A DNA stretch of 64,000 bases from Rhodococcus xishaensis. GTDB lineage: Bacteria; Actinomycetota; Actinomycetes; Mycobacteriales; Mycobacteriaceae. Location: NCBI RefSeq assembly GCF_004011825.1, contig NZ_RKLO01000006.1, forward strand, positions 1-64,000, read 5' to 3'. The notes below the pieces were generated by a model, which worked only from the letters and a program-made list of their open reading frames with translations, had not been told where the DNA came from and ran no database searches. This document shows positions 201 through 13,351 of the stretch, piece after piece (the stretch's first letter is position 1; the number at the start of each line of letters is the position of its first letter). The position numbers were made by a program, and so were the translations under genes.

Positions 201-854
201 GTGTCTAAGTTGCATTCAGCGGCAGAGCTGGCCTACCGCCAGGTCAAGGAGCTCATCCTGACCGGGGAGCTTCCGGGTGGAGAGCTCATCAGCGAGGGCG
301 AAATCGCTACACGCATGGGATCCAGCCGGACGCCCGTGCGGGAGGCGTTCCTCCGGCTCGAGGCGGAGGGCTGGATGCGGCTCTATCCGAAGCGGGGAGC
401 GTTGGTCGTGCCGGTCGCCGAGGGGGAGGCCGAGCACGTCGTCGATGCGCGCCTGCTCCTGGAGGTGCACGCCGTCGAGGCCGTGGTGGAAGATCGCCGC
501 ATTCGGGAGGAGCTGGTCGCGACGCTCCGGACCAACCTGGAGCAGCAGCGCCAACTGGTCACGTCCACGGGCGATGCCGCGCGGTTCAGTGTGCTCGACG
601 CCGACTTCCATCGGGCGCTGGTGCGTGCCGGGGGCAATCCATTGCTCGAGACCTTCTATGACGGGCTCCGGGAACGTCAGCGCAGGATGATGGCTCATTC
701 TCTCGCCCGCGATCCAGAACAGATCACCAAGATCATCGAGGATCACACCCGCCTGGCCGACTTGATCGAGGCCGGGGACGCGGGAGGATTCGCGTCCGCC
801 GTTCGGCGGCACATGCGAGAGGTTCACGCTCTCGGGATGGGTGGGCGGCGATGA
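201..854 (+). CDS. GntR/FCD-family transcriptional regulator
   Basis: A 217-residue regulator. Residues about 8-70 form the GntR winged helix-turn-helix, with the conserved RTPVREAFLRLE recognition segment near residue 43. The rest is an all-helical FCD effector domain with spaced histidines (DADFHRAL, EDHTRLA, RRHMREV) of the type that bind a metal and a small carboxylate ligand. The GTG start at 201 has no clear ribosome site, and an AT-rich tataaatac element lies just upstream, so a leaderless mRNA is possible. Its stop overlaps the ATG of the MFS gene by 4 bp (ATGA), so the two form an operon and the regulator probably controls the transporter. The ligand cannot be read from the sequence. 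Confidence 0.9.
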   Translation: MSKLHSAAELAYRQVKELILTGELPGGELISEGEIATRMGSSRTPVREAFLRLEAEGWMRLYPKRGALVVPVAEGEAEHVVDARLLLEVHAVEAVVEDRRIREELVATLRTNLEQQRQLVTSTGDAARFSVLDADFHRALVRAGGNPLLETFYDGLRERQRRMMAHSLARDPEQITKIIEDHTRLADLIEAGDAGGFASAVRRHMREVHALGMGGRR

Positions 855-2134
855 CCGCGGTCGAAGACCGAGTCGCCGTCACGACCACCGAGGCGCCCAC
901 ACGTCTGCGACCGTGGATGCTCGTTGCCGCGGGCATGTTCGCGGTGGCGTGGGGCGGCAACGAGTTCACGCCGTTGCTGGTGATGTACAGGCTCGAACAC
1001 GGATTTTCGCAGGTTATGGTCGATACCTTCCTGTTCGCGTACGTGCTCGGCATCGTCCCCGCGCTGCTGCTCGGCGGTCCGCTGTCGGACCGCCTGGGCC
1101 GACGCCCCCTGATGCTGCCTGCGCCGTTCATCGCGGTGGCAGGTTCCGTGGTATTGGCGGCCGGCTCGGAGTCTGCGGCCTCGTTGATCGTCGGGCGGAT
1201 CCTCTCTGGCGTAGCGCTGGGGCTGGGCATGGCGGTCGGCGGAAGCTGGCTCAAGGAGCTGTCGACGCCCGACCGAGATCCGTCGGCCCGGCCGGGATCC
1301 GGCGCCCGACGCGCCGCCATGAGTCTGACCGCCGGCTTCGGCATCGGCGCGGGCGTTGCCGGCGTCCTCGCACAGTGGGCGCCGTGGCCGAACGTGCTTC
1401 CATATGCCGTGCACTCGACGCTCGCCCTGGTCGCCGGTGTTGCGTTGCGGCAGGTGCCGGAGACCCGCGCAGCTACACAGGCCGACACGATCGGGTCCTT
1501 CACACAGGGCCTGAGGATCCCCTCCGCCGGGCACCGCCGGTTCCTGTACGTCGTGGCCCCGGTGGCGCCGTGGGTCTTCGGTGCGGCCGCGTCGGCGTAC
1601 GCGGTGATGCCGGCACTCATGACGAGCCGCAGTGGCGGTGTACCCGTGGCGTTCTCGGCATTGCTGTGCATGATTGCTCTCGGCTCAGGATTCGCGATCC
1701 AGGCACTCGGGCGCAGGATCGACACCCCACGCAACGGCCGCGCGATCGCGGTCGCCTTCGGGGTGCTCGTGCTAGGCATGTCTGTTGCGGCGGTCGCTTC
1801 GGGCGTTCTCACGGTGCCGATGTCGATGGTGGCGGCCGCGGTTCTCGGGTGTGGCTACGGTCTCGCCCTGGTATCGGGGCTGCTGGAGGTCCAACGGATC
1901 GCCGGCCCGGACGATCTGGCCGGTCTCACCGCAGTCTTCTACTCCCTCAGCTACCTCGGCTTCGCGTTGCCGGCCGTGATGGCTGTGATCACGGAGGCGA
2001 ACCCTGCGCTGACCTACCCACTGATGTTTGCCGTCGGAGCGATCGCCGCCTTGGCGAGCCTGGCTCTCGTCCTCGTCAAGTGGCGTCGGTATCTGCCCGA
2101 GCCCGCGGGGGATATGGCGTCAGAGCGCGGGTAG
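851..2134 (+). CDS. MFS transporter
   Basis: A 427-residue polytopic membrane protein with about 12 hydrophobic segments. The MFS loop signature GGPLSDRLGRRPL sits between helices 2 and 3 (residues about 76-87). It probably moves a small solute by proton coupling; substrate and direction are not evident. It is translationally coupled to the upstream GntR/FCD regulator, which suggests import or efflux of an organic acid or amino acid seen by that regulator. Its 3' end overlaps the convergent M1 peptidase gene by 15 bp. Confidence 0.88.
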   Translation: MTAVEDRVAVTTTEAPTRLRPWMLVAAGMFAVAWGGNEFTPLLVMYRLEHGFSQVMVDTFLFAYVLGIVPALLLGGPLSDRLGRRPLMLPAPFIAVAGSVVLAAGSESAASLIVGRILSGVALGLGMAVGGSWLKELSTPDRDPSARPGSGARRAAMSLTAGFGIGAGVAGVLAQWAPWPNVLPYAVHSTLALVAGVALRQVPETRAATQADTIGSFTQGLRIPSAGHRRFLYVVAPVAPWVFGAAASAYAVMPALMTSRSGGVPVAFSALLCMIALGSGFAIQALGRRIDTPRNGRAIAVAFGVLVLGMSVAAVASGVLTVPMSMVAAAVLGCGYGLALVSGLLEVQRIAGPDDLAGLTAVFYSLSYLGFALPAVMAVITEANPALTYPLMFAVGAIAALASLALVLVKWRRYLPEPAGDMASERG

Positions 2135-3436
2135 CGCCGTGTCGGTGAGCCACGCAACCCACAGGGAGTGCAGCGGCTTGTCGCTGAAATGCGCTGCCAG
2201 AGAGGTGAACTGTTCGGTGGATACCGTAGAGTGCCGGTACTTGACGGTCCACTTCCGAAGTAGGTCGAAGAAGGCGTCGTCGCCGATCGTCTGCCGCAAC
2301 GTGTGCAGGGTGAGGGCTCCACGCTTGTAGATGCGGTCGTCGAACATCAGCTGCGGGCCGGGATCGCCGAGGACGATGTCCTGTGGCTTGCAGCGGAGTT
2401 CGCGATGCGCCTCGAGCGCGTGGGTGTCGGCATCGGGTCCACCGGAGTTCTCGGACCACAGCCATTCCGCGTAGCATGCGAATCCTTCGTGCAGCCAGAT
2501 GTCCTTCCACATCCCGACGGTGAGGCTGTTTCCGAACCACTGGTGCGCAAGCTCGTGTGCGACAAGGCGTTCCGAGCCGCGACGTCCGTCACAGTGGTTG
2601 GCTCCGAAAATCGACATGCGCTGCGCCTCGATCGGGATCTCGAGATCGTCGCCGGTGATGACGACCGAGTAGTCAGCGAAGGGGTAAGGGCCGAAGAGTT
2701 CTTCGAAGACCGCCATCATCCGGGGCTGACGTCCGAAGTCGTGGTCGAATCGAGTGCGTAGGTCAGTGGGGTGCAGCGCGTACATCGGGACCCGGCCGCC
2801 GTCCACACGTCGGCGCACGTACGGGCCGATCTGGACGGTGGCCAGATAGCTCGCCATCGGTTCGGTCTGCTCGTAGACCCAGGTGGTCTGACTCGCCTTG
2901 GTCTGTCTGCTGACCAGCTTGCCGTTCGCGACCGCGTGGTACGGCGAGTCGGTGGTGATCGAGATCCGGTAACTGGCTTTGCAACTGGGGTGGTCATTGC
3001 AAGGGAACCACGAGGCCGCACCGTTGGGTTGGCTCGCGACGAGTGATCCTTCGGTCAGTTCCTCCCAGCCGACGTCGCCCCACATGCTCGCGATCGGCTG
3101 GGGGTTACCGGCGTACTGGACCGTGACCGCGAGGATGCCGCCCGCGGGGATCTTCTGGGCGGGAGTGATCGTCAGCTGGCCGCCACGGTGAGTGAACTTC
3201 GCACTGCGCCGGCCGTTCACCGACACCTTCGACACCTGCATCGCCTGGGCGAGGTCAAGAGTGAACCGGCTCCGGACATCGGTGGTGGTGGCGGTGATCG
3301 ACGCCGTGCCGGCGAGTCGGTTGCTGTGGACCTTGTAGACCAGCGCGAGGTCATACCGGGACACCCGGTACCCGCGGTTGCCGTGCCGCGGCAGGTACGG
3401 GTCGATCGGCTCGTCCGGAGCCTTGCCAGGCTTCAC
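2120..3436 (-). CDS. M1-family zinc aminopeptidase
   Basis: A 438-residue metallopeptidase with the M1 zinc site: HELAHQ at residues 294-299 and the third ligand in WLHEGF (Glu317), spaced HExxH-x18-E. The usual GAMEN exopeptidase motif is altered to PIEAQRM. The protein is shorter than classical M1 enzymes (about 850 residues), as expected for catalytic-core actinobacterial forms; no signal peptide is seen. I chose the GTG at 3436 because it overlaps the stop of the upstream synthetase gene as GTGA and follows a GGAGA ribosome site; an in-frame ATG lies 27 bases further upstream. Coupling to the poly(amino acid) synthetase suggests it trims or degrades that product. The epsilon-polylysine-degrading enzyme Pld is also an M1 aminopeptidase, which supports but does not prove this role. 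Confidence 0.88.
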   Translation of the reverse strand: MKPGKAPDEPIDPYLPRHGNRGYRVSRYDLALVYKVHSNRLAGTASITATTTDVRSRFTLDLAQAMQVSKVSVNGRRSAKFTHRGGQLTITPAQKIPAGGILAVTVQYAGNPQPIASMWGDVGWEELTEGSLVASQPNGAASWFPCNDHPSCKASYRISITTDSPYHAVANGKLVSRQTKASQTTWVYEQTEPMASYLATVQIGPYVRRRVDGGRVPMYALHPTDLRTRFDHDFGRQPRMMAVFEELFGPYPFADYSVVITGDDLEIPIEAQRMSIFGANHCDGRRGSERLVAHELAHQWFGNSLTVGMWKDIWLHEGFACYAEWLWSENSGGPDADTHALEAHRELRCKPQDIVLGDPGPQLMFDDRIYKRGALTLHTLRQTIGDDAFFDLLRKWTVKYRHSTVSTEQFTSLAAHFSDKPLHSLWVAWLTDTALPAL

Positions 3437-6400
3437 CGTGCTTCTCCGTCCGAGTCGTTCCATGGGGCAATCGGATTGCCCTGCCACCGTGTCGACGGTG
3501 GGAGGACGTCGCCGCGCATGACAAGGGATGCGGGCCCGACGGTGGCGCCGGCGCCGAGCCCGGCGGCGGGCAGTGCGACGCAGTGCGGACCCAGGGTGGC
3601 GCCGGCGCCCAACGTGACGGTGTTCATGGTCATGATCCGATCATGGAACAGGTGCGTTTGCACGACACACCCTCGTTCGACGGTCGCGCCGTCGTCGAGG
3701 GTCACCAGGTCGGCCTCAGGCAGCCAGTAGGTTTCGCACCACACGCCACGGCCGATTGTCGCGCCGAGCCCACGCAGCCATACGTTCATCACGGCGGTGC
3801 CGGTTGCGGCGCGGGCGAACCACGGCGCGGCGACGGTCTCGACGAACGCGTCCGACACCTCGTTGCGCCACACGAACGAACTCCACAGCGGGTGTTCGAC
3901 GGCGCGGATACGCCCGACGACGAGCCACTTCGCCGCCACCGACACCGCGCCCGCGACAGCGCCGGCAACTAGCAGCACCACCCCGCCGCCGAGTGCCGCG
4001 AGTCCGAACCCGCCGACCGAGACCAGCCATGCGAGCGCGAACAGCACGCCCAGACCGATGCCGAACGTGACCATCACGGGGATCAGTCGGCACGTCTCGA
4101 CCACAGCGCGGGCGATCTTCAGCTGCAGCGGTGGATCGAACGTGCGGGTGGCATCGGATTGGGTTGCAGCCCGGCGCAGCCGCGTCGGCGGGCTGCCCAG
4201 CCACGACGATCCCGACTTCGCCTTGCTCGGCGCCACCGACAACACCGCGACCAGTCCGTTCTTGGGGACACGTCGGCCCGGACCGGCCATGCCGGAGTTT
4301 CCGAGGAACGCTCGCTTGCCGACCTTGGCGGGTTCGATGCGCATCCAGCCGCCGCCGAGTTCGTAGCTCGCGACCATGGTGTCGTCGGCGAGGAAGGCGC
4401 CGTTGGCGACAGTCGTGAATTTCGGAAGGACGAGGACGGTGGAAATCTCGGTGTCGCGTCCCACCTTGGCGCCCAGCAGTCGCAGCCACAGCGGCGTCAG
4501 AAGGCTCGCGTACAGAGGGAACAGGAAGGTTCGAGCCGAGTCCATGAGACGCTCGGTGGCCCACGCCTGCCAGCCGACGCGGCTACGGACCGGGTGGTAG
4601 CCCTCGGTGAGCCCGATCGACAGCAGGCGCACCGCGATCACCGTGAGTGCGGCGAATACGAAAAGGCTCAGCACGGTTGCGACAGGCAGGACCGTAAGCG
4701 CTCGCAGGAAGGCGTCGCCGAGGTCAGCGGCATCGCGCGCCCGCCACCCGAGCAGGATCAGTCCGGCGGCGAGACCGAGAATCGGCAGGCCCGCCAAGGC
4801 GACGGACGTCGCGCCGAACACCGGAACCCAGTGTGCGGCGCGGCGCGGGGGATGGTCCGGCCAAGGGCGCGTCGCCTTGCCGACCTTGACAGCCGGTGAT
4901 CCGGCCCAGCGCTGACCAGCCTTGACCTTCCCGAATACCGCAGAGCCAGGTGCGACTTCGGCGCCACGGCCGATGCGGGCGCCCGGCAGCAGCGTGGACC
5001 GTGCGCCGACCGCGGCGCCGTCACCGATGCGGATCCTGCCGATGTGCACGACGTCCCCGTCGATCCAATGCCCGGACAGGTCGACCTCGGGTTCGACGGC
5101 GCAGCCGTCGCCGAGCTCGAGCATCCCGGTCACCGGTGGCAGGGTGTGCAGGTCGACGCGTCGGCCCACCCGAGCGCCGAGCGCACGAGCGAAGTAGAGC
5201 ATCCACGGAGCACCAGAGAGGTTGTCGGCACCACTGGCCTCGACGAGTCGCAGCGCGATCCACAGCCGCAGGTGCTCGGGTCCGCCGCGTGGATATGTTC
5301 CGGCCTTCAAACCCCGCAACAACAGTCGGGCCCCTGCGACGGCGATCGCCATGCGGCCGAGGGGTGTGACGAAGAGGACGAAGGCGAGCGCCACCCACCA
5401 CCACGAGAGCGTCGGGGCCCAGGAGACGTCGAACCAGGACAGCACGTTGCCGGTGATCGCCAGCCACGTCACCCACTGCAGGCCGGTCAGCGTCGTCAGC
5501 GGCACGGTCGCCGCGAACTGCGCGATCTGCGTCCGCCGCGGTGTGGGTTCGACGCGGCGGGGCGCGACCGTCTCGGCGGGAGACAGCTCGTCGAGATAGC
5601 CGGCTAGTGATCCCAGGCGGGGGTGGTCGTACAGCTGCGCGACGGTCACCTCGGGGAAGCGTTCGCGTAGCGCCGTCACGAGTTGGGCCGCAGACAGCGA
5701 GCCGCCCCCCATCTCGAAGAAGTCGTCGTCGGGTCCAGTGATTCCGACACCGAGGATCGGCGTCCACAACTCGGCGACCCAGGCGGCGGTGCCGTCGAGA
5801 TCGGGGCCGGGGGCCGCGCCTCCCGAGATCGCGGTGTTCAGCGGCCAGGGCAGCGCGTTCCGATCGACCTTGCCCGAGGTGCGGGTGGGCAGCTCGTCAA
5901 GGAGCGCCAGGCGAGGAACGAGGGCGTCGGGCAGGTGCTCGGACAGCCGCGTCCTCGCCGCATCGAGGTCGAAGTTCGGGTCGGTGCCGGCGAGGTAGCC
6001 GACGAGGATCGGAGTCCCGGCGGGTGTCTTGCGGATCGCGGCGGCGGCAGCGCTCACGCCGGGCAGGTTCTGGAGCGCGTTGTCGACCTCGCCCAGCTCG
6101 ATGCGCCGCCCGCCGACCTTGACCTGGTCGTCGGCGCGGCCCTGGAAGAGCAGGCCAGCGGGGTCGAGGCGCACCAGGTCCCCGCTGCGGTAGGCGCGAT
6201 CCCAGCCGAGCGTCGGCATGGGCGCGTACCTCTCGGCGTCCTTCGACGGGTCGAGATACCGCGCCAGACCCACGCCGCCGATGACGAGTTCTCCGATCTC
6301 GCCTTCGGCGACGGGTTCACCGCAGGTGTCTACCACCGCGAGATCCCAGCCGTCGAGCGGCAGTCCGATCCGTACCGGTCCGGTACCGTCCATCAGCGCG

Positions 6401-7341
6401 CCGCAGGCGACGACGGTGGCCTCTGTCGGGCCGTAGGTGTTCCACACCTCCCGGCCTGGGACCGCGAGTCGTTCGGCCAGCTCCGGTGGGCACGCCTCGC
6501 CACCGAAGATCAACAGCCGAACCGCCTCGAGCGCCTCCACCGGCCACAGCGCCGCGAGCGTCGGAACAGTGGAGACGATCGTGACGGAGCGAGACACCAG
6601 CCAGGGTCCGAGGTCCACGCCGCTACGCACCAGTGATCGTGGGGCGGGGACGAGCGTCGCGCCGTGCCGCCACGCGAGCCACATCTCCTCGCACGATGCG
6701 TCGAACGCGACCGACAGTCCCGCCAGTACGCGGTCCCCTGGTCCGATCGGTTTCTCCTGCAGAAACATCCGGGCTTCAGCGTCGACGAACGCGGCTGCGT
6801 TGCGGTGCGTGACCGCGACACCTTTGGGGGTGCCGGTCGAACCGGAGGTGAAGATGATCCAGGCATCGTCATCGGGTGTCGGCGGGTAGACGTCGAGAGC
6901 CGTGGCGCGGCTTACGGAGCCGGGCAGGATGCCGTCGGCGGTGAGGATCGCCGCCACCCGCGCCTCCCCGAACACCAGTTCGGCTCGCTCGTCGGGATCG
7001 TCGGCGTCGACGGGCACATACGCCGCACCGGCCGCCAGAACAGACAGGACCGCGACGTACAGCTCGCGCGAGCCGGACGGCATGCGTACCCCGACGCGGT
7101 CACCACTGACGACCCCCGCGTGGGACAGTCGGCGGGCCCCGGCCGCGATTTCGTCGAGCAGTTCTCGGTAGGTGACGGGCGCGGTGCCGTCGTCGATCGC
7201 CGCTGCGTCGGGATAGGCCGAGGCGGTGGCTTCGAGGATGTCGATGAGTGTGCGTGGGGCGGGTGCCAGGGAAGACCGCAGGAGGACGGCCGGAATCGCG
7301 GTCGCTCGGTGACCTGTGTCCGGGTGCGGGGGGAGGGGCAA
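3433..7341 (-). CDS. Pls/PosA-type membrane peptide synthetase
   Basis: A 1302-residue single-module nonribosomal peptide synthetase. Residues about 30-500 are an adenylation domain with FTSGSTGTPKGV (164-175), NTYGPTEAT (301-309), YRSGDL (384-389) and SGKVDRNAL (489-497). Residues about 515-585 are a thiolation domain whose phosphopantetheine serine is Ser548 (GGGSLS). The rest holds about six membrane helices separating three hexapeptide-repeat (left-handed helix, acetyltransferase-like) domains, with no canonical condensation or thioesterase domain. This is the layout of epsilon-poly-L-lysine synthetase Pls, which makes isopeptide-linked homopolymers at the membrane. The pocket residues read D-A-E-S-I-G-T-V-V-K, compatible with a cationic amino acid. 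The start is TTG at 7341 behind an AGGAC element and is less certain than the rest. The M1 peptidase follows with a 4-bp overlap. Confidence 0.88.
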   Translation of the reverse strand: MPLPPHPDTGHRATAIPAVLLRSSLAPAPRTLIDILEATASAYPDAAAIDDGTAPVTYRELLDEIAAGARRLSHAGVVSGDRVGVRMPSGSRELYVAVLSVLAAGAAYVPVDADDPDERAELVFGEARVAAILTADGILPGSVSRATALDVYPPTPDDDAWIIFTSGSTGTPKGVAVTHRNAAAFVDAEARMFLQEKPIGPGDRVLAGLSVAFDASCEEMWLAWRHGATLVPAPRSLVRSGVDLGPWLVSRSVTIVSTVPTLAALWPVEALEAVRLLIFGGEACPPELAERLAVPGREVWNTYGPTEATVVACGALMDGTGPVRIGLPLDGWDLAVVDTCGEPVAEGEIGELVIGGVGLARYLDPSKDAERYAPMPTLGWDRAYRSGDLVRLDPAGLLFQGRADDQVKVGGRRIELGEVDNALQNLPGVSAAAAAIRKTPAGTPILVGYLAGTDPNFDLDAARTRLSEHLPDALVPRLALLDELPTRTSGKVDRNALPWPLNTAISGGAAPGPDLDGTAAWVAELWTPILGVGITGPDDDFFEMGGGSLSAAQLVTALRERFPEVTVAQLYDHPRLGSLAGYLDELSPAETVAPRRVEPTPRRTQIAQFAATVPLTTLTGLQWVTWLAITGNVLSWFDVSWAPTLSWWWVALAFVLFVTPLGRMAIAVAGARLLLRGLKAGTYPRGGPEHLRLWIALRLVEASGADNLSGAPWMLYFARALGARVGRRVDLHTLPPVTGMLELGDGCAVEPEVDLSGHWIDGDVVHIGRIRIGDGAAVGARSTLLPGARIGRGAEVAPGSAVFGKVKAGQRWAGSPAVKVGKATRPWPDHPPRRAAHWVPVFGATSVALAGLPILGLAAGLILLGWRARDAADLGDAFLRALTVLPVATVLSLFVFAALTVIAVRLLSIGLTEGYHPVRSRVGWQAWATERLMDSARTFLFPLYASLLTPLWLRLLGAKVGRDTEISTVLVLPKFTTVANGAFLADDTMVASYELGGGWMRIEPAKVGKRAFLGNSGMAGPGRRVPKNGLVAVLSVAPSKAKSGSSWLGSPPTRLRRAATQSDATRTFDPPLQLKIARAVVETCRLIPVMVTFGIGLGVLFALAWLVSVGGFGLAALGGGVVLLVAGAVAGAVSVAAKWLVVGRIRAVEHPLWSSFVWRNEVSDAFVETVAAPWFARAATGTAVMNVWLRGLGATIGRGVWCETYWLPEADLVTLDDGATVERGCVVQTHLFHDRIMTMNTVTLGAGATLGPHCVALPAAGLGAGATVGPASLVMRGDVLPPSTRWQGNPIAPWNDSDGEAR

Positions 7342-8037
7342 TTCCGAAGTCCTGTCCTCGTCTGTGCTGTCGAGCAGTTTTTCGTTCCTGGGTTGCGCGT
7401 TGGTGAACCCGCCGCGGAGGCGACATGCCCTGAGTCTCGAGTATCGACGTAGGCGCAGCTGCGGAGTACAGCGACATGCGGATGGGGTGTTGTTACCGAA
7501 GGATCGTCCGTCGATGGGCTGTCGTCTCGTCCACTTCGGCGGTCGGGTCCGTCCGCCCGGGCGTCGGCAGCGTGGACGCGAGGTCTACCGGTATTCAGCT
7601 TCTTCTTGGTCGCTTTCTGAACACGGCTTTCTTGACATCGCTCAGGTCCCGCTGGTGGATGCGATCGACAAAAAGTTCGGCGATAGTTTCTTTGGCCGCG
7701 CCCCAGCCAAGGACCTGACAAGATCAGAAATCTTGTACCGAATACGGCCGGAGCGAAACAAGGCGGAGCGGTGCGATCAGGACGGGAAAGATCGTCGGAT
7801 CCGACACCATGCGAGCACCCCTTCGCCGCATGCCATGCGAACGATCGTTCACTCTGCGTACATTCGCACACCGTGTTCGGGTGCAGAAGATGTTGCTACC
7901 CCCTACCGTCACCAGGAATGTGACGAAATCAACCCAATCCGGACAATTTTTGGTTGTAGCCGGGTGATACGGTCTCTCAGCCCCTAGCGTCGGCGATGGT
8001 CTCAGGCCTGACTTGCCGGTCGCGTAAGGCCGATCAC
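7342..8037. other. Long intergenic region before the betaine operon
   Basis: About 700 bases without a convincing gene lie between the divergent synthetase and choline transporter genes. Open frames here are short, low in family-like character and overlap each other. Visible structure: a 7-bp inverted repeat acaagat/atcttgt at 7718-7736, a perfect 12-bp palindrome gaacgatcgttc at 7839-7850, and an AT-rich stretch at 7920-7970 just before the transporter. These are candidate operators or promoters for the betaine operon. Confidence 0.5.
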
Positions 8038-10269
8038 ATGAGGATTCTGGTGAAACCGACTAAAAGTGAAAACAATGTGCGCCCGACGGGCTCGAGTACT
8101 ACCGATCTAGTCCCTGACGGGCCACCTCCGCCACCGAATAAGCCCGAAGGCAAATCCGGGCCACCGGTTTCGGTAAACTGGCCGGTCTTCGTCGGTGCCA
8201 GCGTCGGCATCGTCGGCATCATTCTGTGGGCGTGGATCAATCAGGACAACGCGGAATCCGTAATCGGCACAGGGGTTTCTTGGGTCGCTAGCAACCTGGG
8301 CTGGTTCTACATCCTGTTGGTCACCGTGGTGCTGGGATTCGTCGTCTGGGCGGCTGTGTCCAGCGTGGGCAAAACCAAACTCGGACCGGATCACTCCAAG
8401 CCAGTATTCGGCCTGTTCTCCTGGACGGCAATGCTTTTCGCCGCCGGAATCGGCATCGATCTGATGTTCTTCTCGGTGGCGGAACCGGTCACGCAGTTCC
8501 TCCAGCCACCCACCGGAGCCGGTGAGACCAACGAGGCGGCCCGGCAGGCACTGGTGTGGACGCTGTTCCACTACGGCATCATCGGGTGGGGTCTGTACGC
8601 CCTGATGGGCCTGGCTCTGGGCTACTTCGCCTACCGTCACAACCTCCCGCTGAGCATCCGTTCGGCCCTCTATCCGATCTTCGGTAAGCGGATCAACGGC
8701 CCGCTGGGCAACTTCGTGGACATCGCCGCACTGCTCGGTGCCATCTTCGGGCTCGCCACCAGCCTCGGGATCGGCGTTGCTCAGCTCAACTACGGGCTGA
8801 GCGATTTGTTCGGGCTGCCCGAGGGGACACCCGCGCAGGCGGGACTGGTCGCTGTCGCCGTGATCATCGCAACTCTGTCGGCAGTGTCCGGCGTGAACCG
8901 TGGTGTGCGACGGCTCTCGGAGATCAGTGTGGTGGCGGCCATCGGCCTGCTGGTGTACATCCTCGTGACAGGATCCACATCGTTCCTGTTCAACGGCATG
9001 GTTCAGAACATGGGCGACTTCGCCAGCCGCTTCCCCGGCATGACGCTCGACACGTTCGCCTACGACTCGCAAGAGGAGTGGATGTCGGCGTGGACGCTGT
9101 TCTTCTGGGCGTGGTGGATTGCATGGGCGCCGTTCGTCGGTCTGTTCCTCGCCCGCATCTCCCGTGGCCGGACCATCCGTCAGTTCGTGGTCGGCACGCT
9201 GACCATCCCGTTCCTGTTCATCCTGGTCTACATCTCGATCTTCGGAAATAGTGCCATCGGCATTGTTCGCGGTGGCGACAGCGAGTTCGGCGAGACCGCC
9301 ATGGCCTCTCCCGAGCGGGCGTTCTACTCGCTGCTCGAGCAGTACCCGGGAGCCCCGATCCTCGCGGGGATCGCTACGTTCACCGGTCTGCTGTTCTATG
9401 TCACCAGCGCCGACTCCGGCGCACTGGTGATGGCTCGGTTCAGCTCACGAATCCAGGACAACGAATCCGACGGCCCCGCCTGGGTGCGAATCTTCTGGGC
9501 CGTCGCCACCGGCGTGCTGACCCTGGTAGCACTCATGATCGGCGGCGTGACCACGTTGACGAACGCCACGATCATCATGGGTCTGCCGTTCGCGGTCGTC
9601 ATCATGTTCATCATGCTCGGCCTGTTCAAGGCACTTCAGGTGGAAAAGAACTGGGCCGAGTCCCTGCGGAAGTCGCTGCCGAACGCGCTGTCCAGCCGCA
9701 GTGCCGGCGGCACCAGTCTGCACTGGCGCCAGCGCGTCGAGCGGTCGATGCGCTTCCCCGGCGCTGAGGCCACCGAGCGCTACGCGACGACGGTCGTCGG
9801 ACCGGCCCTTGCCGAGGTCGCGGCCGAACTCCGAAGCCAGGGGGCTGACGCGGCAGTCGGCGAACAAGTGGTCGAATCCTGCGGAATCCACTCCTACCAC
9901 CTCAACGTCCTGTTCGAGGGTGAGCGTTCGTTCCACTACCAGGTCTATCCCACCGAACACCAGACACCCAGCTACGGCCAGGGCGCACAGAAACTGGACA
10001 GGTACTTCCGCCTCGAGGTGTTCTCGGCTGACGGCAGCAACGGGTTCGACGTGTTCGGGTTCACCAAGGAACAGCTCATCAGCAACGTTCTCGACCACTA
10101 CGAGCGGCAACTCGAGTTCCTGCACCGCAGCCATGGCATCGACTCAACGGCTGTCGACGGCGATCCGGTCATCGACTGGTCGCACGATTTCGAGGCCCTC
10201 GATATCGGTGACCTGTCCAAGGCGGGCCGGGGCGCCGACGACGTGCGGCTCGAGATGGAGCCCAAGTGA
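8038..10269 (+). CDS. betT: BCCT choline/betaine transporter, BetT-like
   Basis: A secondary transporter of the betaine/choline/carnitine family, about 743 residues with 12 predicted membrane helices. The helix-8 region contains the tryptophan-rich FFWAWWIAWAPFVGLF segment that forms the substrate box in this family. A C-terminal cytoplasmic extension of roughly 190 residues (HWRQRVERSMRFPG onward) is typical of long BetT-type choline carriers and acts in osmotic regulation there. It probably imports choline for oxidation by the next two gene products; the dehydrogenase gene overlaps its stop by 4 bp. The start is uncertain: ATG 8038 has an aagg 10 bases upstream, while an ATG at 7996 and a GTG at 8050 are in frame. 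Confidence 0.88.
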   Translation: MRILVKPTKSENNVRPTGSSTTDLVPDGPPPPPNKPEGKSGPPVSVNWPVFVGASVGIVGIILWAWINQDNAESVIGTGVSWVASNLGWFYILLVTVVLGFVVWAAVSSVGKTKLGPDHSKPVFGLFSWTAMLFAAGIGIDLMFFSVAEPVTQFLQPPTGAGETNEAARQALVWTLFHYGIIGWGLYALMGLALGYFAYRHNLPLSIRSALYPIFGKRINGPLGNFVDIAALLGAIFGLATSLGIGVAQLNYGLSDLFGLPEGTPAQAGLVAVAVIIATLSAVSGVNRGVRRLSEISVVAAIGLLVYILVTGSTSFLFNGMVQNMGDFASRFPGMTLDTFAYDSQEEWMSAWTLFFWAWWIAWAPFVGLFLARISRGRTIRQFVVGTLTIPFLFILVYISIFGNSAIGIVRGGDSEFGETAMASPERAFYSLLEQYPGAPILAGIATFTGLLFYVTSADSGALVMARFSSRIQDNESDGPAWVRIFWAVATGVLTLVALMIGGVTTLTNATIIMGLPFAVVIMFIMLGLFKALQVEKNWAESLRKSLPNALSSRSAGGTSLHWRQRVERSMRFPGAEATERYATTVVGPALAEVAAELRSQGADAAVGEQVVESCGIHSYHLNVLFEGERSFHYQVYPTEHQTPSYGQGAQKLDRYFRLEVFSADGSNGFDVFGFTKEQLISNVLDHYERQLEFLHRSHGIDSTAVDGDPVIDWSHDFEALDIGDLSKAGRGADDVRLEMEPK

Positions 10270-11774
10270 GCGCTCGCACCCTGTTCATCGGCGGGACGTG
10301 GCAGGCCGCCACTGACGGAGGCGCAAGGGACATCGAGTGCCCCGCCACCGGTGAGCTTGTCGGGACGGTCAGCGAGGCCACCCGCGTCGATACCGAAAAG
10401 GCGATCGCTGCGGCGCGCGCCGCTTTCGACGATGGCCGCTGGTCCAGTGTCCCGGCAAGCGACCGCGGCGCCTTCCTGCTTCGGGTGGCGCAGCGGTTGC
10501 GCGAACGCAAGGCCGAGTTCGCGCGCGCCGAATCCCTGGACACTGGGAAACGGCTCGTCGAGTCCGAGATCGACATGGACGACATCACGGCGTGCTTCGA
10601 GTACTTCGGCCGCGTGGCCGCACAGGATGCGGGGCGACTGGTCGACGCAGGCAGCGCCAGCGTCGTCAGCCGCATCCAGTACGAACCGGTCGGCGTGTGC
10701 GGGATGATCACCCCCTGGAACTATCCGCTTCTCCAGGCCGCATGGAAGATCGGGCCCGCTCTGGCCGCGGGCTGCACTTTCGTGCTCAAACCGGCCGAGC
10801 TCACCCCGCACACCTCCATCCTCATGATGGAGGTGCTCGACGAACTCGGTCTGCCGGCGGGCGTCGCCAACCTCGTCACCGGCAACGGCCCCGATGCCGG
10901 CGCTCCCCTGAGCGAGCACCCGGACGTCGACCTGGTCTCGTTCACCGGCGGGCTGGTGACCGGCCGGGTCGTGGCCGCGGCGGCCGCCGCGACAGTGAAG
11001 AAGGTGGCTCTGGAGCTCGGCGGCAAGAACCCGAATGTGATCTTTGCCGACGCCGACTTCGATGCCGCCGTCGACAATGCCCTCAACGGCGCGTTCGTTC
11101 ACTCGGGGCAGGTGTGCTCCGCGGGTGCCCGGATCGTCGTGCAGGAGTCGATCGCAGAGAAGTTCACCGATGCGCTCGTCGCCCGTGCACAGCTAATCCG
11201 GCTCGGTGGTCCGTTCGATGAGCGGGCCGAGACCGGCCCGCTCATCTCGGCGGCGCACCGCGACAAGGTGGACGCGTACGTGAAGGCAGGTGTCGCCGAG
11301 GGTGCCCGCGTACGCTGCGGCGGCGCATTTGCCACCGGCACGTCCGGAGACACCGATCTCGACGCCGGCTACTACTACCTGCCGACCGTGCTCGACCAGG
11401 TACGCAGCGGGATGTCCGTCGTGGTCGACGAGGCCTTCGGCCCCGTCGTCACGATCGAGACGTTCACCGACGAGGACGATGCCGTGCGGATCGGCAACGA
11501 CACGCATTACGGCCTCGCCGGCGCGGTGTGGACTCAGGACGCCGGAAAGGCGCAGCGGGTAGCGAACCGGTTGCGCCACGGCACCATCTGGATCAACGAC
11601 TTCCACCCATACCTGCCTCAGGCGGAGTGGGGTGGATTCGGGCAGTCCGGGGTGGGTCGTGAACTCGGCCCCACGGGCCTCGACGAATACCGCGAGGCCA
11701 AGCACGTCTATCAGAACGTCGCACCGGCTGTCACCGGCTGGTTCGATGATGCATCACAGCAGGAGAACCGATGA
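10266..11774 (+). CDS. betB: Betaine-aldehyde dehydrogenase
   Basis: A 502-residue NAD(P)-dependent aldehyde dehydrogenase. The motifs are all present: the cofactor segment MITPWNYPLLQAAWKIGPAL, the catalytic-base segment ELGGKNPNV, the catalytic cysteine in GQVCSAGAR, and the late motif GPVVTIETF. It oxidises betaine aldehyde to glycine betaine, the second step from choline. The assignment rests on its position between a BetT-like transporter and a choline-dehydrogenase-like enzyme; by family alone it could be another aldehyde dehydrogenase. GTG start at 10266, overlapping the transporter stop (GTGA), and its own stop overlaps the next ATG, so the three genes form a tightly coupled operon. 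Confidence 0.87.
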   Translation: MSARTLFIGGTWQAATDGGARDIECPATGELVGTVSEATRVDTEKAIAAARAAFDDGRWSSVPASDRGAFLLRVAQRLRERKAEFARAESLDTGKRLVESEIDMDDITACFEYFGRVAAQDAGRLVDAGSASVVSRIQYEPVGVCGMITPWNYPLLQAAWKIGPALAAGCTFVLKPAELTPHTSILMMEVLDELGLPAGVANLVTGNGPDAGAPLSEHPDVDLVSFTGGLVTGRVVAAAAAATVKKVALELGGKNPNVIFADADFDAAVDNALNGAFVHSGQVCSAGARIVVQESIAEKFTDALVARAQLIRLGGPFDERAETGPLISAAHRDKVDAYVKAGVAEGARVRCGGAFATGTSGDTDLDAGYYYLPTVLDQVRSGMSVVVDEAFGPVVTIETFTDEDDAVRIGNDTHYGLAGAVWTQDAGKAQRVANRLRHGTIWINDFHPYLPQAEWGGFGQSGVGRELGPTGLDEYREAKHVYQNVAPAVTGWFDDASQQENR

Positions 11775-13351
11775 ACGAATCGGCTGCCGAAAGCACCTTC
11801 GACTACGTCGTGATTGGCGGGGGCTCGGCAGGTTCGGCCGTCGCGGCGCGACTGTCGGAGGACCCCACCGTCACGGTCGCGCTGGTCGAAGCCGGTCCTG
11901 ATGACCGCAACATCCCCGAGGTGCTGCAGCTCGACCGGTGGATGGAATTGCTCGAATCCGGTTACGACTGGGACTATCCCGTGGAACCGCAGGAGAACGG
12001 CAACTCATTCCTGCGTCACGCCCGCGCCAAGGTGATGGGCGGATGCTCCTCGCACAATTCGTGCATCGCGTTCTGGCCGCCGGCCGAAGACGTCGACAGC
12101 TGGGAGGCGGAGCACGGTGCCACTGGCTGGAACAAGGACACGCTCTGGCCGGTGCTCAAGCGTCTCGAGACCAACGAAGACGCCGGCCCGGACGCACCAC
12201 ATCACGGTGACAGCGGCCCCGTGCACGTGATGAACGTTCCGCCCGCCGATCCCTGCGGGGTGGCGCTGCTCGAGGCGTGCGAGCAGGATGGCATCCCCAC
12301 ATCGCGGTTCAACACCGGCACCACTGTGGTCAACGGGGCCAACTTCCTGCAGATCAACCGGCGCGCGGACGGCACCCGTTCTTCGTCTTCTGTGTCGTAC
12401 ATCCATCCGATCGCCGATCGGGAGAACTTCACGCTACTGACGGGTCTACGCGCGAAGCGACTGGTGTTCGACGGCACCCGGTGCGTCGGGGTCGAGGTGG
12501 TGGACAACCAGTTCGGGCGCCCGCGAGTCATCCGGGCAACCGGCGAAGTGGTTCTGTCCGCCGGAGCCATCGACTCGCCGAAGCTATTGATGCTCTCCGG
12601 CATAGGTCCCACCGACCATCTGCACGAGCACGGCATCGACGTCCTCGTGGATTCTCCCGGCGTGGGGTCCAATCTGCAGGATCATCCAGAGGGCGTCATC
12701 TCGTGGGAGGCGTTGCAGCCCATGGTCGAATCCTCCACTCAGTGGTGGGAGATCGGTGTCTTCACGACGGTGGACGAGGGCCTGGACCGGCCGGACCTGA
12801 TGATGCACTACGGGTCGGTGCCGTTCGATATGCATACTCTGCGGCAGGGCTACCCCACGGCTGAGAACGTCTTCTGCCTCACCCCCAACATCACGCACGC
12901 GCGTTCGCGCGGCACGGTGCGCCTGCGATCCCGGGACTTCAGGGACAAGCCGCGCGTCGATCCGCGGTACTTCACCGACCCCGAGGGCTACGACATGCGG
13001 ATCATGATCGCCGGAATCCGGCGCGCTCGTGAGATCGTCGCTCAGCCGGCGATGAGTGCGTGGACCGGCGACGAGTTGTTCCCCGGAAAGGACGTGCAGT
13101 CCGACGAGGAACTGGCCGACTACATCCGTCGCACGCACAACACCGTCTACCACCCTGTCGGCACCGTTCGGATGGGAGATGCCGGTGACGACATGTCACC
13201 GCTCGACCCGCAACTGCGTGTCAAAGGTGTACACGGACTGCGCGTCGCCGATGCCTCGGTGTTCCCGGAACACACCACCGTGAACCCGAACATCACCGTG
13301 ATGATGGTCGGCGAGCGGTGCGCGGATCTGATCAAGGCCGACCGGGGCTGA
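11771..13351 (+). CDS. betA: Choline dehydrogenase-like GMC flavoenzyme
   Basis: A 526-residue GMC oxidoreductase. The FAD-binding dinucleotide fold is at the N terminus (YVVIGGGSAGSAVAARLSE, residues about 12-30). The second GMC signature region GEVVLSAGAIDSPKLLMLSG lies near residue 260. The active-site histidine region is at the end (NTVYHPVGTVRMG and HTTVNPNITVMM). It oxidises choline to betaine aldehyde, feeding BetB. It is the last gene of the operon; a strong hairpin follows 31 bases after the stop. Choline specificity is inferred from context. Confidence 0.87.
   Translation: MNESAAESTFDYVVIGGGSAGSAVAARLSEDPTVTVALVEAGPDDRNIPEVLQLDRWMELLESGYDWDYPVEPQENGNSFLRHARAKVMGGCSSHNSCIAFWPPAEDVDSWEAEHGATGWNKDTLWPVLKRLETNEDAGPDAPHHGDSGPVHVMNVPPADPCGVALLEACEQDGIPTSRFNTGTTVVNGANFLQINRRADGTRSSSSVSYIHPIADRENFTLLTGLRAKRLVFDGTRCVGVEVVDNQFGRPRVIRATGEVVLSAGAIDSPKLLMLSGIGPTDHLHEHGIDVLVDSPGVGSNLQDHPEGVISWEALQPMVESSTQWWEIGVFTTVDEGLDRPDLMMHYGSVPFDMHTLRQGYPTAENVFCLTPNITHARSRGTVRLRSRDFRDKPRVDPRYFTDPEGYDMRIMIAGIRRAREIVAQPAMSAWTGDELFPGKDVQSDEELADYIRRTHNTVYHPVGTVRMGDAGDDMSPLDPQLRVKGVHGLRVADASVFPEHTTVNPNITVMMVGERCADLIKADRG

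Follow-up and report, generated by a model that had tools for sequence, protein, structure and literature searches.

Two adjacent genes on the reverse strand of contig NZ_RKLO01000006.1 of Rhodococcus xishaensis very probably encode an epsilon-poly-L-lysine (epsilon-PL) synthetase and the hydrolase that degrades its product, an antimicrobial polymer, in the arrangement of a pls-pldII operon. The pair lies within the 64,000-nucleotide stretch that we analysed (positions 1 to 64,000 of the contig; hereafter the window) and fills positions 2120-7341, exactly the span given to it by an earlier sequence-only reading. It consists of a predicted Pls-type epsilon-PL synthetase gene (3433-7341; 1302 aa, TTG start), recognized by domain, profile and Protein Data Bank (PDB) matches, and a downstream gene for a PldII-type M1 zinc peptidase, the predicted epsilon-PL hydrolase (2120-3436; 438 aa, GTG start). 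This kind of operon is already understood, having been described in Streptomyces and Corynebacterium, and the window pair is a well conserved further example of it.

Domain architecture and substrate pocket of the synthetase

The synthetase begins with an adenylation (A) domain (aa 19-503; 5833-7287 by alignment to PDB entry 7wew; Pfam AMP-binding at aa 36-361), which is followed by a thiolation, or carrier, domain bearing a GGGSL motif (aa 521-583; 5593-5781; PP-binding, 2.4e-13) and by a C-terminal membrane and hexapeptide-type region (aa 607-1291; 3469-5523), all on the reverse strand. This last region is matched by TIGR02353, "Pls/PosA family NRPS" (nonribosomal peptide synthetase), with an E-value of 2.7e-223 and a score of 743 bits (cut-off 423), and together with the A and carrier domains it bears out the assignment to the Pls type made from the sequence alone. 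Hydropathy analysis placed hydrophobic blocks at aa 648-671, 839-867, 876-913 and 1079-1143; a further stretch at aa 93-113 falls within the A domain and was taken as a false positive. On the basis of the TIGR02353 match and of the blocks at aa 648-671, 839-913 and 1079-1143, the C-terminal part appears to fit a three-fold layout in which each of three transmembrane-rich blocks precedes a soluble domain, the first helix of block 1 being sub-threshold. Pfam Hexapep recognized a single stretch only (aa 770-802). Domain searches of the synthetase found no condensation or thioesterase domain, the domain order being A-T and then the C-terminal membrane region of Pls/PosA type. Among the best 80 of at least 585 relatives, the closest synthetases were those of Prescottella equi (88% identity) and Rhodococcus sp. 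OK519 (87%), in keeping with the Rhodococcus-like host proposed earlier.

The top match of the A domain in a phmmer search of the PDB was 7wew, a Streptomyces epsilon-poly-L-lysine synthase (2e-196, 659 bits), and the second best was linear gramicidin synthase (1.3e-120). The substrate pocket, placed by motif and read on alignments, is formed by D214, A215, E218, S257, I278, G280, T302, V310, V311 and K491. The resulting string, DAESIGTVVK, equals the Streptomyces Pls pocket, with the same residues in the 7wew alignment, and was present in all 83 sequences compared, namely that of the window, 79 of the 80 loci, two from Streptomyces and one from Kitasatospora; the remaining locus (L077), whose contig ends before the M1 gene, was left out of this count and of the M1 start counts given below. 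The same pocket was read in 7/7 plasmid-borne relatives fetched from the 19 records found, three of the seven being already within the 83. As a control, six second synthetases carried by relatives (32.5-35.6% identical; three from the genus of the window) were read, and all six had DFEYLGTVTK. These six were taken from 11 whole second synthetases, a twelfth, in genome G003, being in three pieces and unused; the 7 kb fetched for the six contained no M1 match.

Position 2 of the pocket is reported to be Ala in lysine, Met in ornithine and Phe in poly-diaminopropionate (PDAP) and poly-diaminobutyrate (PDAB) synthetases (PMC10522769). The Phe mark is absent from the window synthetase, which has Ala, and present in the six second synthetases. 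Because its pocket equals the lysine type and carries Ala at this size-reading position, the synthetase is predicted to use lysine. It is very improbable that it makes another cationic homopolymer (poly-ornithine, PDAB or PDAP) for degradation by the M1 enzyme. Such a product would accord with the naming of TIGR02353 for Pls and PosA together, and pocket codes predict a substrate rather than prove it, but the pocket of the window synthetase lacks the Met or Phe reported for the other polymers, and the six Phe-type second synthetases examined have both a different pocket and no adjacent M1 gene. PosA, the delta-poly-L-ornithine synthetase of Acinetobacter baumannii, is of the same Pls/PosA family by name; its pocket reads DMEHNGTVSK (PMC10522769), as against DAESIGTVVK in the window. 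The suggestion of the sequence-only reading that the product may be an undescribed homopolymer or lipid-linked compound was rejected as the leading explanation, the pocket being identical to the lysine type, in contrast to the DFEYLGTVTK control, and the same operon having already been published (PMC4361855, PMC8117764).

In three loci from the genus of the window (L134, L135 and L136), a reading frame close to the second synthetase contains a conserved stretch resembling ALVYRG-LPGC, which in L134 and L136 is preceded by an RRGF signal-like segment. None of the three has a nearby M1 gene.

The M1 peptidase and the gene overlap

The downstream product was described earlier as an M1 zinc aminopeptidase, and its placing among the M1 peptidases held: Pfam matches it with Peptidase_M1 (3.1e-24) and Peptidase_M1_N (5.2e-16), and alignment shows an intact HELAH-x18-E zinc site (H294, E295, H298 and E317; 2486-2557, reverse strand). 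These four residues as well as E270 and Y370, all of which we take to have the zinc-binding and catalytic roles of their counterparts in other M1 enzymes, are invariant in 33/33 aligned M1 sequences (that of the window, 30 of the 79 loci carrying M1 and two plasmid relatives). The best PDB match is 6a8z/6iff (3.7e-49), like the window enzyme a short M1 (474 aa) and presumably one of Deinococcus type.

The likeliest start of the M1 gene is the GTG at 3436, which yields the 4-bp overlap that had been noted previously: the sequence GTGA at 3433-3436 (reverse strand) is common to the synthetase stop codon (3435-3433) and the M1 start codon (3436-3434). Other in-frame starts upstream in the window are an ATG at -31 and a GTG at -55. 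When the window and 79 relatives are counted together, 50 of these 80 loci have an in-frame start at -4, and the most upstream start with an overlap of at most 4 bp falls at -4 in 49/79 loci and at -1 in 17/79.

Co-occurrence of the two genes across the family

Across 121 evenly sampled genomes of the family (thresholds of E <=1e-100 for the synthetase and E <=1e-40 for M1), the synthetase was found in 109 and the M1 gene in 110; 109 genomes had both, 11 neither, one the M1 gene only and none the synthetase only (Fisher p 9.4e-15, relatedness ignored). The sequence-only reading had proposed a search for conservation of the pair in other Mycobacteriales, and the outcome strongly supports such co-conservation. 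The genes stand side by side in all 14 genomes of the genus of the window. The 11 genomes without either gene come from six genera, four of which also hold genomes with both; completeness is only 81% and 85% for two of the 11. Of the 109 genomes, 72 have the M1 and synthetase matches no more than 200 bp apart, and a further 25 have them 201-3000 bp apart on one strand; in the remaining 12, the M1 match is more distant, on a different contig or on the opposite strand. Among the best 80 of at least 585 relatives, M1 is downstream on the same strand in 79, the contig of L077 ending first; it starts within approximately 120 bp of the synthetase stop in 74 of these 79 loci and farther away in five (Tsukamurella, Williamsia).

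M1 enzymes are common housekeeping peptidases, and the genome from which the window comes holds two further M1 matches (27-30% identity), as might be expected if the M1 enzyme were an aminopeptidase of general function that only happens to be encoded next to pls. We consider this quite unlikely, as 11 of the 12 genomes lacking the synthetase also lack this M1, every one of the 109 genomes with the synthetase has it, and even the 12 genomes in which the two genes are not close together retain both.

Individual genomes and contigs depart from the common pattern. The sole M1 gene without a synthetase, in genome G038 (locus L137, contig C6), encodes a protein 53% identical to the window M1; a search of that genome with the whole synthetase returned only NRPS-type A-T matches and one weak stretch in the hexapeptide region (1.7e-4). 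Six genomes of genus g3 (G015, G045, G065, G081, G109 and G121) keep both genes, but their M1 (47-50% identity) is not beside pls, being on a different contig or on the opposite strand, and the seventh sampled genome of that genus, G096, has neither. The pls-M1 pair is also present in locus L096, the contig of which bears the title of a Bifidobacterium breve metagenome bin; the synthetase there is 69% identical to that of the window, within the range of Mycobacterium and Mycolicibacterium loci, and the contig is possibly misassigned.

Comparison with characterized operons

The pls and pldII genes of Streptomyces albulus are neighbours in a single operon, where they overlap by 4 bp (PMC4361855), and they are called translationally coupled (PMC9223678). 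The window pair resembles them in synthetase family, in pocket (7wew), in having the peptidase gene directly downstream and in the 4-bp overlap. The make-and-degrade partnership proposed in the sequence-only reading fits the pls-pldII operon in print (PMC4361855, PMC8117764); the name Pld does not, since the operon partner in print is PldII. The S. albulus pair was represented in our sequence comparison by Streptomyces sp. NBC_01454, the A domain of which is close to 7wew (983 bits). On a plasmid of this strain, an M1 gene overlaps by 4 bp a gene whose annotation reads epsilon-PL synthase Pls. The window synthetase is 56% identical to its counterpart over 1287 aligned positions. In a different genus, the Pls operon of Corynebacterium variabile, likened to the window pair here by its published description, has a synthetase that gave epsilon-PL of 26-35 residues in S. 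coelicolor (PMC8117764). Rhodococcus is among the genera listed with homologues (PMC8117764), an antiSMASH epsilon-PL cluster has been reported in R. erythropolis (PMC10819586), and a predicted Pls has been reported in Nocardia (PMC4035055).

Several observations weigh against the assignment of the pair to the pls-pldII class. The M1 enzymes of the window and of NBC_01454 share only 40% identity (over 436 positions, 1e-112), and what we take to be the exopeptidase motif differs between them, reading PIEAQ in the window and PVENQ in the Streptomyces partner. The conservation of the pocket was measured among close relatives, the 80 loci being the best of at least 585. In 37 of the 109 genomes with both genes the two matches do not lie within 200 bp of each other, and two plasmid loci with the identical pocket, L143 and L144 (Streptantibioticus and S. 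viridifaciens), have no M1 gene in the 3-kb downstream flank. In the C. variabile study, there was no detectable epsilon-PL in C. variabile itself, nor in C. glutamicum carrying the C. variabile gene, where the protein was detected (PMC8117764). Finally, PldII of S. albulus is reported to be located outside the membrane (PMC9223678).

Proposed cellular location and role of the M1 enzyme

Only 11 residues precede the conserved core of the window M1, and by hydropathy they contain no signal-like segment; longer forms begun at the upstream starts are non-hydrophobic by eye. N-terminal hydropathy is below 1.0 in 77/79 loci, the two higher values being those of L024 (1.22) and L042 (2.01), the latter reached in an upstream frame of 126 aa, which probably does not mark the real start. 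The two Streptomyces M1 partners open with a hydrophobic segment that contains RR (hydropathy 1.65 and 1.75); the window enzyme lacks the RR-containing signal-like segment with which the M1 of NBC_01454 begins. Of the seven plasmid-borne loci, five have an adjacent M1 gene, the product of which is signal-like in the two from Streptomyces and not signal-like in those from Kitasatospora, Embleya and Nonomuraea. Judged by hydropathy only, these values suggest a cytoplasmic site for the M1 of most members.

We propose that the synthetase activates L-lysine as lysyl-AMP and loads it onto the carrier domain, and that its membrane-embedded C-terminal domains would then link lysines via epsilon-amino bonds, yielding epsilon-poly-L-lysine. 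The M1 peptidase, probably translationally coupled to the synthetase, would hydrolyse this polymer. Because no export signal is visible, it would most likely act in the cytoplasm, on polymer that has not left the cell or has come back into it, as a safeguard or for recycling, and not as an extracellular trimmer. Published statements on whether PldII sets chain length conflict: its inactivation was without effect on chain length according to a review (PMC8506220), and repression of pldII by CRISPR interference led to longer chains (PMC9223678).

The Mycobacteriales pair might alternatively make a cell-associated or lipid-linked lysine product and no secreted polymer. No polymer was secreted by C. 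variabile in the conditions used (PMC8117764), and the near-ubiquity of the pair in the sampled family (109/121 genomes) suggests a role beyond that of an occasional antibiotic. This alternative nevertheless seems improbable to us, given that the C. variabile enzyme yields free epsilon-PL in S. coelicolor (PMC8117764) and that five neighbouring genes in the window, compared with Pfam, belong to no lipid-handling family.

Genes between and around the pair

A GNAT acetyltransferase gene (L036:9950-10426) lies between pls and M1 in the Tsukamurella loci L032, L036 and L038, as well as in L102 and L104, the family being assigned by a Pfam search of the L036 protein; its product could be a putative polylysine acetylator. 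In L034, L109, L110 and L128 the intervening position is taken by an opposite-strand gene, which we assume to be DoxX-like. These genes were left out of the system because neither kind is found between the two genes of the window, and across the whole window the GNAT query gave no match better than E 0.59.

Divergent from pls, at 7996-13351, the window contains genes for a BCCT transporter, an aldehyde dehydrogenase and a GMC oxidoreductase, each overlapping the next by 4 bp, a row that looks like one for choline-to-betaine uptake and oxidation. On the other side, an MFS transporter gene (851-2134, forward strand) runs 15 bp into the end of the convergent M1 gene, and a GntR/FCD regulator gene (201-854) overlaps the start of the MFS transporter gene by 4 bp.

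Implications for the Mycobacteriales

Production of epsilon-PL by native organisms of this family was not found demonstrated in the literature looked at. What our analysis adds to an operon type known from other genera is a quantitative link between the polymer synthetase and its likely degrading enzyme across 121 genomes (109 with both, 11 with neither, one with the peptidase only and none with the synthetase only). Since all but one of the sampled genomes without the synthetase also lack M1 and none has the synthetase alone, we tentatively raise the possibility, itself rather doubtful, that the two genes form a near-core system inherited together in Mycobacteriales. Epsilon-PL would then have a function associated with the cell, and the coupled M1 enzyme, which lacks a visible export signal, would be an obligatory cytoplasmic safeguard. 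The pattern raises the testable question of why nearly all sampled members of the family retain these two genes, and whether the polymer is degraded within the cell.
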